The notes below the pieces were generated by a model, which saw only the letters and a list, made by a program, of their open reading frames with translations, was not told the origin of the DNA and did no database searches. Position numbers and translations under genes: made by a program. 64,000 nucleotides of DNA, from positions 62,001-126,000 of the forward strand of contig CALIMH010000005.1 of the NCBI GenBank assembly GCA_938028725.1, given 5' to 3'. The first letter of the stretch is position 1; each line of letters begins with the position of its first letter. Positions 29,397 to 33,727 of the stretch are shown piece after piece. Source of the stretch: an uncultured Anaerolineae bacterium. GTDB taxonomy: Bacteria; Chloroflexota; Anaerolineae; J036; Brachytrichaceae.

Positions 29397-30404
29397 TCAA
29401 CGCCCCAACAGTGCGCGGATGCGCGCTCGCATGCGCTGTGAGGACGCTGGATCAAGTGCCGCAACCGGCGCCGGGGAGCGCGGCTTGAAGCGCACGGGTG
29501 GTGGCGGCGGTTGGTAGCCGGGGCTGAGATAGGCCAGCCGTTCCGGGACCATCTTGACGGGCGCAAAGCCAAATGTGCGATGCACGCTGCCGATCTCCGC
29601 AGTGCGGTTGTAGGATAGCGCGTCCATTTCTGGCTCGCTGAGCATATCCTGGAAGCGCGAGAGAAAGCTCACGAGGTAGTGCGTGAGCGGAGTCGGCACC
29701 CGCACCAGCCGCCGCTGCTCTGCTTTGGCCTTCAAGGTGATCTTGGCAATGTCGGCCAAGGTGAGCGCTTGCGGACCGCCGATGGTGATAACCTGGCGGA
29801 ACGTGGAGCGCAGCTCCAAGCTGCGCGCGATGCAGGCGGCCACGTCGCCGACCCAAATCGGCTGCAACTTGGTGTAGCCACCGTGAGGTAGCGGCATGAC
29901 AATCGGTAAGTTGCGCGCGATTTGGTTTAGCCAGCGCGTCAGCCAGTCCCCCTCACCGTAGATGACCGCTGATTTCAACACAGTGAAGTTCAGCCCCGAT
30001 TGGCGCACGCGCTCCTCGGCGATCCCCAAGCTACGCAAGTGAGGGAAAGGAGAACGGACTTCCGCACCCAGGCAGCCCACCATGATCAGCCGTTGCACCT
30101 TGGCGCGCTTGGCAGCATCAATGACGTTCTCTGTGCCGCGAATGTTGACCTCCTCGAATTTGTCCTCTTTGGTCTCGCGGCGGATGAAGGCTAGGTGGAT
30201 GATCGTGTCACACTCGCCTCCATCGGTCAGCGCCTCATAGATGGAATCTTGGTTGCGGACGTCGCCGCCGGTGATCACCACTCGGCGCGGTGCAGGGTGC
30301 TCGTGTCCCCAATGGAACAGGCACTTCACCGCATGGCCTGAATTCACCAAGCGCTCGACCACCGCGCGCCCGACGCAGCCCGTCGCTCCTGTCACGAGTA
30401 TCAT
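29397..30404 (-). CDS. NAD(P)-binding epimerase-like protein (NDUFA9/atypical SDR group)
   Basis: A 335-residue Rossmann protein starting directly with [16 protein letters not shown], the glycine-rich motif of atypical SDRs. The middle has LKSAVIYGEGDWLT and PIWVGDVA, typical of the NmrA/NDUFA9-like branch that lacks the Tyr-Lys catalytic pair. The last 50 residues are Pro-rich and basic. Members of this group act on membrane quinones, flavonoids or as complex I assembly factors; no specific substrate can be inferred. Its ATG overlaps the stop of the upstream PH-domain gene as ATGA, so the two are made together. Confidence 0.8.
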   Translation of the reverse strand: MILVTGATGCVGRAVVERLVNSGHAVKCLFHWGHEHPAPRRVVITGGDVRNQDSIYEALTDGGECDTIIHLAFIRRETKEDKFEEVNIRGTENVIDAAKRAKVQRLIMVGCLGAEVRSPFPHLRSLGIAEERVRQSGLNFTVLKSAVIYGEGDWLTRWLNQIARNLPIVMPLPHGGYTKLQPIWVGDVAACIARSLELRSTFRQVITIGGPQALTLADIAKITLKAKAEQRRLVRVPTPLTHYLVSFLSRFQDMLSEPEMDALSYNRTAEIGSVHRTFGFAPVKMVPERLAYLSPGYQPPPPPVRFKPRSPAPVAALDPASSQRMRARIRALLGR

Positions 30405-31333
30405 GCTGCACTCCCGTTGAAGGCGCTAAGGGCGATGCTGAGCAAACCGGCCAGGCCTATCACTTGAACAGCAGCGCTACCGCCCCACAGAATCAGGCTC
30501 ATCAATCGCCCCAGCGAGTTGGGCGCTGGCCGATAGAGTGTAATGCCTAGGCCGACATTGAGCGCTGTCACGACTGTCCCGATAAGCGCCGGCATGAATA
30601 ACCCACTCTTGTCTCCCAGCCGGTCCGGATTCCCCCACGCGTCAAAGTGGAGCGGCACCTGGCCCGGCACGATCGGATATAGCGCCGTGCTACAGGCGAT
30701 CAGCGCTAAGTTTAGCGCAATTGCCAAAAATATCAAACTGAAAGCTAAGCGATCGCTACGTACATTCTCCTTAAGCAGGCGCGGCAGCAAGCGTTGGCGG
30801 GTGACCTCTTGAGTGGGGCCCATCTGGATGCGCTTGGCCAGCTCCTCGACGAAGCTCGACACCTCGCTAGGCGAGATGATGAGTTTGTCGTGCTTGGAGA
30901 CGATGATGATCTGCTCGGTTGGCTCGGCGGTTGCAAAGACGCGCATCTTGCCCAGCTCAGGATGATGGGCTGTTCCAACCCACCATCCTGGCAGCGGCAG
31001 CCGCCGATAGCGCAGCGCATCGGCGAAGCCCGCGCCGGCAAGCACCTTATCGATCTCCCGCACAGGGACCACTTCCCGGATATGCCCCCACTGGATGATC
31101 AGCGCGTTCCGGTCAAGGTGGTAGTGAAAGTGATAAAGAGACCACAACAGGTAGCCTGCGGACGCCGCCAGCGCGCCCAGCACCACTGCCCCCAGTCCCA
31201 GTAGGAAGGTGAGCAGTGACAGAGGGACGACGGCTGCGCCGATGCCCAGGGCAATGGCAGAGGCACAAAGTAACACCAGCGCGACCACGCTGCTGATGGT
31301 GGGCGACCTGAGCGGTGGTTCGAACGTGTTCAT
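30401..31333 (-). CDS. Membrane protein with bacterial PH-like domain and DUF1648 segment
   Basis: A 310-residue protein. Two hydrophobic segments (about 15-35 and 37-68) precede a PH-like beta domain (about 72-165, including [18 protein letters not shown]). Further membrane segments are at about 198-220, 245-265 and 280-303. Between them, [18 protein letters not shown] is the DUF1648/SdpI-type motif. Such proteins act as membrane sensors or toxin-immunity proteins in some bacteria, but the function is unknown. I chose ATG 31333; the upstream open frame covers the promoter region. A leftward TATACT lies 41 bases before it. Confidence 0.8.
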
Positions 31334-31374
31334 AGCGTGCTCAACGTCTGCAGCACGGCGAGCAAACCGGTTAG

Positions 31375-31451: not shown

Positions 31452-31793
31452 ATGGCCGAACAGATTCGATGGCAGGACTTTGAGCGGGTGGAAATTCGCG
31501 CTGGCACTATCGTGAAAGCCGAGGCCTTCCCTGAAGCGCGCAAGCCGGCCTACAAGCTTTGGATTGACTTCGGGCCAGAGATCGGCGTGCGCAAGTCCTC
31601 AGCCCAGATCACGCACCATTACACGCCGCAATCTCTGATCGGCAGACAGGTGGTGGCTGTGCTGAACTTCCCGCCGAAGCAAATTGGGCCTTTCATCTCT
31701 GAGGTGTTGGTGACCGGCTTCGCGGACGCTGACGGGCACATTGTGCTGGTTCAACCTGAGCGGCCGGTGCCCAACGGCGCCCGCTTGGTGTGA
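31452..31793 (+). CDS. csaA: CsaA-like tRNA-binding-domain protein
   Basis: A 113-residue OB-fold protein of normal CsaA length. The start is [18 protein letters not shown], the middle [20 protein letters not shown], and the end [16 protein letters not shown], all given here in fragments of the family consensus ([32 protein letters not shown]). CsaA is a dimeric protein with a tRNA-binding-like fold and chaperone activity linked to protein export in Bacillus. An upstream in-frame extension is rejected because it spans the promoter. The sigma-factor gene starts one base after its stop. Confidence 0.9.
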
Positions 31794-31794
31794 C

Positions 31795-32673
31795 ATGCTG
31801 CTGGGCGTCGTAGAGAGCAACAATCCGCGCGCTGAAGAGCGTGAGCTGATCGCCCGCATCCGCGCCGGCGATCCGGCGGCTTGTGCACTGTGTGTGGAAA
31901 CGCACGCGCCGGCGCTGTATCGCTTGGCCCTGCGCCTGGTCGGTGACCCTCAAGAGGCAGAGGATGTGCTGCAGGACACGTTTCTCAGCGCCTTTCAAGC
32001 CCTGCACCACTTCGATGGCCGCTCCAGCTTGCGCACTTGGCTACATCGCATTGCCGTGAACGCGGCGCTGATGCGCTTGCGCAAGCGTCGCAGCCGCGTC
32101 ACCCTCTCGCTGGATTCGTCACAGGCCGACGACGCCGCGGCAGATTTCAGCGAGCTGCTGCCGATCGTCGAGCCGGACGCGGAGGCGCTGCTGCTCCAAC
32201 AAGAGACCGCCGAGATGCTCGGCGATGCGATTGAGCGGCTGCCCCAAGCGCTGCGTGAGGTCTTCGTGCTGCGCGAGCTTGAGGAGCTTTCGACGGCAGA
32301 GACGGCGCACCGTTTGGGGATCAGTGAGGCTGCGGTGAAGGTGCGCTTGCACCGTGCCCGTCGCGCTTTGCGCGACTACGTGAGCGCGCGCATGCGCGAC
32401 GACGCGCTGCCGCCGGCGCAGTCCATCGCGTGCCAAGATGCCCTGCGCTTCTTGGAGGAGGCTCAGCGACGCGGACGGCCGCGCGCCGAGGACATCACCC
32501 TGCAGCAAGCGTTGCGCGAGCATATTGCCGCTTGCGAGCGTTGCCGGCTGCTGCTCGATCCGCGCTATCGCTCTGTCCTCTTCCTCTGCGACGACAAGCC
32601 CACTAATCTGCCGCCTGAGGCGCAGCGCCGGCTTTATGAACAAATCCGAGATGCCTGGCGTGCGCGCTTGTGA
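31795..32673 (+). CDS. ECF sigma factor with fused C-terminal zinc-finger (anti-sigma-like) tail
   Basis: A 292-residue protein. Region 2 (about 18-95) includes RLALRLVGDPQEAEDVLQDTFL and region 4 (about 140-196) includes LREVFVLRELEELSTAETAHRL and KVRLHRARRALR in fragments. A normal ECF factor would end near residue 200. Here about 92 residues follow, with Cys213, His243, Cys247 and Cys250 in the His-x3-Cys-x2-Cys spacing of the zf-HC2 zinc-binding anti-sigma domain. No separate anti-sigma gene is nearby, so the inhibitor may be built in and respond to zinc or redox state. That role is inferred. The ATG is 1 base after the csaA stop; tilS follows. Confidence 0.88.
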   Translation: MLLGVVESNNPRAEERELIARIRAGDPAACALCVETHAPALYRLALRLVGDPQEAEDVLQDTFLSAFQALHHFDGRSSLRTWLHRIAVNAALMRLRKRRSRVTLSLDSSQADDAAADFSELLPIVEPDAEALLLQQETAEMLGDAIERLPQALREVFVLRELEELSTAETAHRLGISEAAVKVRLHRARRALRDYVSARMRDDALPPAQSIACQDALRFLEEAQRRGRPRAEDITLQQALREHIAACERCRLLLDPRYRSVLFLCDDKPTNLPPEAQRRLYEQIRDAWRARL

Positions 32674-32707
32674 TGCCGAACTGGTGATCCCTAACCTGGT
32701 CTCTCGC

Positions 32708-33727
32708 ATGCGCGCAGTGGTGGCTGAGGCCTTCCCACCACAGGATCACGTCCGGCCGGTGATTGTGGGCGTGTCTGGCGGCGCAGATTCGCTGTGCCTC
32801 GCGGATGCCCTGCACAGCGTGGCCGAGGCCCATCGCCTGCACATCGTGGTCGCCCATCTCGATCATGGCTTGCGCGGCGCGGTTGCCCAGGAGGATGCGC
32901 TGGCGGTGCGCCGCTTCGCAGAAGCACGCGGGCTGCCATGTGTGGTCGGGCGGGTGGACGTAGCAGTGCTGGCGCAAGAGGGACGTGTCTCGCTGGAGCT
33001 GGCGGCGCGCCGAGCGCGCTACGCATTTTTGGCCGAGGTGGCGCGCAATCATAGCGCTCAGGAAGTGGCCGTGGCACACCACGCTGACGACCAGGCGGAG
33101 ACCGTGTTGCTGCGCCTGTTGCGCGGCAGTGGCTTGCGCGGCCTGCGCGGCATGCGGCCTCGCAGCCCGTTGCCGGCTGCGCCGCAGCTCACGCTGGTGC
33201 GGCCGCTGCTGGGCGTTGCCCGCGCGGAGATCGAGGCCTACTGCCGCGCCCGCGCCTTGCACCCTCGCGATGACGCCACCAATCGCGACCTGCACCACCT
33301 GCGCAATCGCGTCCGCCATGAGCTGCTGCCTCTGCTGCGCACCTACAACCCCAACATCGCTCGGACGCTGGCGCGCTTGGCCGATGTGCTCACCGACGAC
33401 TGGGAGATCGTCGAGACAGCCGCCCGCGCAGCGTTGGACCAAGTGGCGACAGTTCAGCCGGGTGAGGTGCGCCTGGACCGCGCAGCTTGGCGCGCTCTGC
33501 CGCGTGGTTTGCAACGTGCCACGCTGCGTTTGGCGGCGGAGCACGTGTATGGGGACGTGGTGGAGCTGCCCTACGCTGTTGTGGAGGAGGCGCGCCGCGT
33601 GCTCAACAGCCAAGCGTCGCGCGCTTGCATCGCGTTGACCGCAGGCCTGCGTGTCTACGTGGAGCGCAACGCAGCAACCATGTGCACTGCAGCGAACCTG
33701 CCCCCAGCGTGCCCTGAGGGCGTGTGA
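32708..33727 (+). CDS. tilS: tRNA(Ile)-lysidine synthase TilS
   Basis: A 339-residue N-type ATP pyrophosphatase. The PP-loop SGGADS is at residues 23-28, then VAHLDHGLRG, LPCVVGRVD, and the second signature AHHADDQAETVLLRLLRGSGLRGL in part (HHADDQAETVL). Lysidine synthase modifies C34 of the AUA-reading tRNA-Ile and is normally essential. The chain is short; a small helical domain follows the catalytic core but the typical C-terminal TilS domain seems absent. Starts at 32651, 32684 (GTG) or 32708 are possible; 32708 gives the standard distance to the PP-loop. The upstream choices overlap the sigma-factor gene. Confidence 0.92.
   Translation: MRAVVAEAFPPQDHVRPVIVGVSGGADSLCLADALHSVAEAHRLHIVVAHLDHGLRGAVAQEDALAVRRFAEARGLPCVVGRVDVAVLAQEGRVSLELAARRARYAFLAEVARNHSAQEVAVAHHADDQAETVLLRLLRGSGLRGLRGMRPRSPLPAAPQLTLVRPLLGVARAEIEAYCRARALHPRDDATNRDLHHLRNRVRHELLPLLRTYNPNIARTLARLADVLTDDWEIVETAARAALDQVATVQPGEVRLDRAAWRALPRGLQRATLRLAAEHVYGDVVELPYAVVEEARRVLNSQASRACIALTAGLRVYVERNAATMCTAANLPPACPEGV

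Follow-up and report, generated by a model that had tools for sequence, protein, structure and literature searches.

A compact soluble ECF sigma factor with a C-terminal domain homologous to zinc anti-sigma factors in an uncultured Anaerolineae bacterium

Analysis of a 64,000 nucleotide stretch of DNA (the window) from an uncultured Anaerolineae bacterium identified a gene for an ECF sigma factor that continues into a tail which, by sequence comparison, is a zinc anti-sigma (ZAS) domain. We conclude that the encoded protein is a genuine soluble, single-chain form of a known type, the sigma factor with a fused anti-sigma factor. With moderate confidence, we interpret the gene as one in which an ECF sigma factor and its cognate soluble zinc-type class I anti-sigma factor are joined by translational fusion, so that the sigma factor would be inhibited in cis and released by a thiol trigger. 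Taken by themselves, inhibition in cis is likely and well supported by homology, and redox gating is plausible and less certain. The features of the locus are given in Table 1.

Table 1. Features of the fused sigma factor gene and its immediate neighbours, in window coordinates.
Feature	Position	Strand	Evidence or remark
ECF sigma factor gene with fused C-terminal ZAS (anti-sigma) domain	31795..32673	+	ATG start, 292 aa
Sigma region 2 domain	31894..32094	+	Residues 34-100; Pfam PF04542 (Sigma70_r2), 2.1e-22
Sigma region 4 domain	32212..32370	+	Residues 140-192; Pfam PF08281 (Sigma70_r4_2), 3.1e-17
C30-x2-C33-x3-H37 triad, start of sigma2	31882..31905	+	Alignment; present in every fused protein and in some unfused family members
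Linker, approximately residues 201-212	32395..32430	+	Replaces sigma stop codon and anti-sigma start
Predicted fused ZAS / class I anti-sigma domain, residues 213-292	32431..32670	+	HMM of separate ZAS
Cys213, first ZAS ligand position	32431..32433	+	Cys in 7/7 fused proteins and 50/51 separate ZAS
His243, second ZAS ligand position	32521..32523	+	His in 51/51 separate ZAS and 4/7 fused proteins
Cys247 and Cys250, third and fourth ZAS ligand positions	32533..32544	+	Cys in 7/7 fused proteins and 51/51 separate ZAS
Cys265, extra cysteine	32587..32589	+	Present in 4/4 of the window lineage, 0/3 g65 fused proteins and 0/51 separate ZAS
Predicted anti-sigma helix 4, approximately residues 273-292	32611..32670	+	AlphaFold helix 274-291 (low tail confidence); homology to C-terminal part of separate ZAS
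csaA, upstream neighbour	31455..31793	+	TIGR02222, 2.9e-49; stop codon one base before ECF start
tilS, downstream neighbour	32651..33727	+	TIGR02432, 1.4e-54; possible start overlaps ECF 3' end

The N-terminal part was identified as an ECF (group IV sigma70) sigma factor by its match to TIGR02937 (113.7 bits against a cut-off of 42.9) and by the presence of sigma2 and sigma4 with a short linker; the nearest NCBIfam model, NF008888, scored 177.7 bits, under its cut-off of 204. The tail is 80 residues long and carries C213...H243-x3-C247-x2-C250, the four residues being numbered correctly in the original prediction. The remaining cysteines are at positions 30, 33 and 265, with none between residues 34 and 212. 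No membrane helix was found in the tail (the best 19-residue Kyte-Doolittle mean was 0.25) and the protein, which is soluble by sequence, terminates at residue 292 straight after the ZAS domain.

The Pfam zf-HC2 model matched the window protein below its gathering cut-off of 22.2 bits (13.3 bits and E 0.09 for the full protein; 16.1 bits and E 0.013 for the tail alone), and the tail was therefore tested by other routes. Using an HMM built from 42 separately encoded ZAS proteins only, without fused tails, the gene was the top hit out of the window's 1,427 reading frames (E 9.3e-10), and the tail scored 37.7 bits compared with 10.9 bits for the best of 2,000 tail shuffles. It could be aligned with separate ZAS proteins along the domain, from the first cysteine through H-x3-C-x2-C to the C-terminal helix, at a low identity of 20-29%. 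The best PDB match of the whole window protein was SigW (5wuq_A, 1.8e-23, residues 18-194), and a ZAS profile that included several fused tails had its best PDB match in RsiW (5wuq_C, 3e-5), these being the two chains of one inhibited complex, 5WUQ. An alignment mixing sigma and ZAS rows was not used, as its ZAS rows fell on the sigma factor. Most tail-less sigma relatives from the same class, which share up to 57% identity in the sigma part, are followed directly by a small ORF for a separate ZAS, and more distant relatives in Acidobacteria are also mostly tail-less with a separate downstream ZAS ORF. The Pfam sigma domains and the HMM match confirm the initial description of the protein as an ECF sigma factor bearing an anti-sigma-like tail; the HMM and the downstream genes of the relatives also bear out the suggestion that the zinc site in this tail is one normally found on a separate protein. 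We conclude from these comparisons that the tail is, as judged by homology, descended from a zinc anti-sigma factor normally encoded separately, an ancestry that makes self-inhibition the natural reading.

No anti-sigma gene adjoins the fused gene, as had been noted at the outset, its neighbours being csaA and tilS. The position between these two genes was given correctly in the original prediction, but no functional meaning could be attached to it: csaA and tilS were not found beside any orthologue of the fused gene examined, and their synteny was dismissed as incidental. On the opposite strand, a gene adjoining csaA (30401-31348) encodes a protein with bPH_5 (bacterial PH domain) and DUF1648. 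A search of the host genome, a 2.28 Mb assembly of 19 contigs, with the window protein identified two further ECF-like genes. One of them, on contig C13, is closely followed by a separate gene for a zf-HC2 protein, the only zf-HC2 in the genome above the cut-off.

The survey for the fusion covered 60 relatives together with 396 genomes from the class and 400 from the phylum, in draws that overlap. The full-length fused matches came from seven genomes and fall into two lineages of one class: the window lineage, which includes three orthologues from a sister genus (L032-L034, at 55-62% identity), and one genus of another family, referred to here as g65 (L074-L076, 43-46% identity). All remaining alignments that spanned both halves contained a stop codon and correspond to separate gene pairs. 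One of the g65 fused proteins (L074) exceeds the Pfam zf-HC2 cut-off, at 31.2 vs 22.2 bits. An in-frame ATG at the point where the separate gene would start is kept in all three g65 fused genes, which suggests that it is a trace of an origin by read-through of the sigma stop codon; at the same site, members of the window lineage carry a codon for Ile or Leu (Ile211 in the window protein). In a tree of the sigma part only, the two fused groups were sisters with weak support (81/37), and on this sequence evidence a single origin of the fusion is favoured and two origins less so. An internal start producing free anti-sigma factor was considered and rejected in both lineages: the window gene has no ATG at the fusion point and its nearest upstream in-frame ATG, at codon 200, is not conserved in the orthologues, while no well-spaced Shine-Dalgarno sequence was seen by eye ahead of the g65 ATG. 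Three g65 genomes carry tail-less sigma relatives (L077, L085 and L089) with no recognised downstream ZAS; the other three genomes of the genus have the fused form.

Comparison of the fused proteins upheld only part of the expectation that the Cys/His set is kept in homologues. The three ZAS cysteines are present in every fused protein, but the equivalent of His243, which is His in the window protein and g65, is Ala in L032 and Tyr in both L033 and L034, the three closest orthologues. The four-ligand motif is complete in four of the seven, the other three having the three cysteines only; the invariant His among the 51 separate ZAS is partly by construction, as they were collected by a pattern requiring it. 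With His243 lost in its closest orthologues, the window lineage does not share a CHCC zinc gate throughout, and the initial suggestion of a self-inhibited, redox- or zinc-gated sigma factor is supported for self-inhibition, on the strength of the ZAS homology, and weakened for the gate. Members of the window lineage have in common Cys265, a proline soon after C250 and a new motif, C-x2-AL-x-F-[IL]-E-x-A-x-RRG, and in the alignment their helix 1 is altered. That C265 replaces the histidine as a ligand is a guess. No cysteines were found in the fused proteins outside the conserved sets. An extra conserved cysteine within LCAEIE, seen in 31 of the 51 separate ZAS (L035, L036, L037, L041 and others), is lost in all seven fused proteins. 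Estimates of dN/dS, which are rough given that synonymous sites are near saturation, were 0.12-0.16 for the tail and 0.07-0.16 for the sigma part, and such purifying selection argues that the tail is not decaying.

Both C30 and C33 are present in 23 of 80 sigma family members, of which 21 also have His37, and the carriers include all seven fused proteins and many unfused ones. The same C-x2-C-x3-H at the start of sigma2 was observed without a fused tail in L035, L041, L077-L080, L085-L087, L089, L092 and L097. The three residues align with residues 22, 25 and 29 of E. coli RpoE, and since RpoE residue 22 marks a position touched by helix 4 of the anti-sigma factor in each of the four published ECF/anti-sigma co-crystals (PMC7406223), the triad is predicted to lie within the interface expected to be covered by the tail.

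Homologues of thiol/sulfur genes were present within approximately 4 kb at 40 of 73 sigma family loci, compared with 1 of 40 control stretches taken from genomes of the same set (p 3e-9, an optimistic value because the exemplars were drawn from eight of the 73 loci and related species are not independent). The exemplars, checked with Pfam, were thioredoxin reductase-like, glutaredoxin-like, OsmC, DUF302, rhodanese, metallo-beta-lactamase/rhodanese and YeeE-type proteins. These neighbourhoods suggest that the ECF sigma family of this class controls a thiol or reactive-sulfur stress regulon. No exemplar gene lies within 4 kb of the window gene or its sister-genus orthologues. Loci with thioredoxin reductase-like, glutaredoxin-like, OsmC, DUF302 and rhodanese neighbours include L098, L099, L101, L104, L115, L119, L121, L066, L069 and L070. 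At two others (L071 and L122), the sigma factors (L044 and L047) are unfused, have a CxxCxxxH motif and no recognised adjacent ZAS, and are neighboured by a metallo-beta-lactamase/rhodanese protein, a rhodanese and a YeeE-type sulfur transporter. Bipartite word counts in 71 regions upstream of family sigma genes revealed no autoregulatory promoter motif above the level of shuffles.

AlphaFold modelling of the full window protein produced confident sigma domains and an unplaced tail (pLDDT 40-74 for most of the tail, pTM 0.43). Modelling of the tail with 16 relatives gave five helices with a mean pLDDT of 67, and no PDB fold match to the tail model was found at a useful E-value. The four solved ECF/anti-sigma co-crystals share contacts between helix 1 and sigma4 and between helix 4 and sigma2 (PMC7406223), and by analogy with published complexes (PMC5358783, PMC7406223) the tail would, in the resting state, be folded back on the sigma domains of its own chain. 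Helix 1 of the tail would mask the sigma4 surface that reads the -35 element and helix 4 the sigma2 surface that binds RNA polymerase, and the masked domains would form no holoenzyme. A cytoplasmic thiol signal (disulfide, reactive sulfur or electrophile stress) may then act on C213, C247 and C250, with loss of zinc where zinc is bound, and the loosened tail would free the sigma domains for transcription of thiol-homeostasis genes. Inhibition in cis, the trigger and the target genes of the fused sigma factor are the parts of this model that we infer. Points in favour of redox control are the cysteine as first ligand, the retention of thiols over the histidine and, indirectly, the thiol/sulfur neighbours of the family. 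RsrA needs its first-ligand cysteine (Cys11) for sensing (PMC4960319), and this RsrA-type trait, able to form a trigger disulfide, is represented by C213 in all seven fused proteins.

A possible but less likely alternative is that the fused anti-sigma factor has a merely structural zinc site and is released by Clp-type proteolysis of the tail or by another partner, and not by redox. Oxidised RsiW still holds SigW despite an intact CHCC motif (PMC5358783), which makes the RsiW site no sensor and means that a CHCC site alone does not imply sensing; the mixing of zinc and non-zinc anti-sigma domains within groups has likewise been taken to mean that the zinc is structural (PMC7406223), the extensions of ECF115 proteins are predicted to be targeted by Clp (PMC8999054), and His243 is dispensable in the sister genus. 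The same comparison also counts against a structural site, as all cysteines are conserved and the histidine is not, so that the thiols seem to matter more than the metal site, and the thiol/sulfur neighbourhoods of the sigma family point in that direction too. We consider it unlikely that the fusion went further and let the zinc site be rebuilt, with His243 made dispensable, the sensor placed on the cysteines, and the sigma domain co-sensing through C265 and C30/C33/H37.

In two other explanations the tail would not inhibit the sigma factor. The tail could have turned activating or metal-reading, needed for activity in the manner of CorE and not blocking it, given that CorE and CorE2 use a Cys-rich tail (PMC8999054) and that the window lineage gained C265 and has a changed helix 1; we find this very unlikely, as the sigma2-sigma4 linker has no CXC, indeed no cysteine, and the homology of the tail is to inhibitors. 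Loss of His243 in the sister genus and the 20-29% identity to separate ZAS would fit a decaying remnant attached to a sigma factor that is constitutively active or controlled by transcription only. With a dN/dS of 0.12 in L033/L034, the three ZAS cysteines in 7/7 fused proteins and a new motif shared in the window lineage, this seems highly improbable.

Several known systems resemble the window protein in part. ECF48, ECF52 and ECF53 are fused sigma/ZAS proteins with transmembrane helices and long extensions, ECF52 being reported from Actinobacteria only (PMC8999054, PMC5826349). These groups (SCO4117 type) share with the window protein an ECF sigma factor and a C-terminal ZAS in one chain and are thought to be anti-sigma fusions, but their descriptions come from Actinobacteria and they have a transmembrane helix and extension after the zinc finger and the window protein has neither; filing under ECF48, ECF52 or ECF53 was rejected because the transmembrane feature is missing. 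The best solved relatives of both halves are SigW and RsiW of Bacillus subtilis (5WUQ/5WUR), which have the CHCC ZAS fold and the same H-x3-C-x2-C spacing, but in this case there are two proteins, with RsiW membrane-anchored and released by proteolysis. SigR/RsrA of Streptomyces coelicolor offers a soluble ZAS with a cysteine as first ligand and the theme of thiol stress, which is represented here by the family neighbourhoods; it also consists of separate proteins, and the RsrA residues linked to redox sensitivity E39, E40, L45 and E46 (PMC5358783) correspond to Ala245, Ala246, Arg251 and Leu252 in the window protein. Unfused pairs of an ECF sigma factor and a soluble ZAS from the same class (such as L035, L079, L080 and L087) belong to the same sigma family and have the C30-x2-C33-x3-H37 triad and a homologous ZAS, the differences being that their ZAS is a separate downstream ORF and often has the LCAEIE cysteine that the fused proteins lack. 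CorE and CorE2 (ECF238) also have their own Cys-containing C-terminal regulatory domain, but CorE-type proteins combine a Cys-rich domain with a CXC in the sigma2-sigma4 linker; the window protein has a ZAS as its tail, and ECF238 membership was rejected for want of the CXC. No report of a soluble ECF-ZAS fusion was found in the literature searched, which lay outside the main ECF classification (Casas-Pastor 2021).

Earlier fused sigma/anti-sigma proteins have been described mainly as membrane proteins, and at about 290 residues the window protein is a very compact soluble form. Fusion fixes the ratio of sigma to anti-sigma factor at 1:1, making inhibition in cis directly testable. The extant series of a separate pair, a fused CHCC protein, a fused CHCC protein with C265 and a fused protein without the histidine may illustrate how a zinc sensor changes after fusion, and the link of the family to thiol/sulfur stress genes hints that SigR/RsrA may have a counterpart beyond the Actinobacteria.
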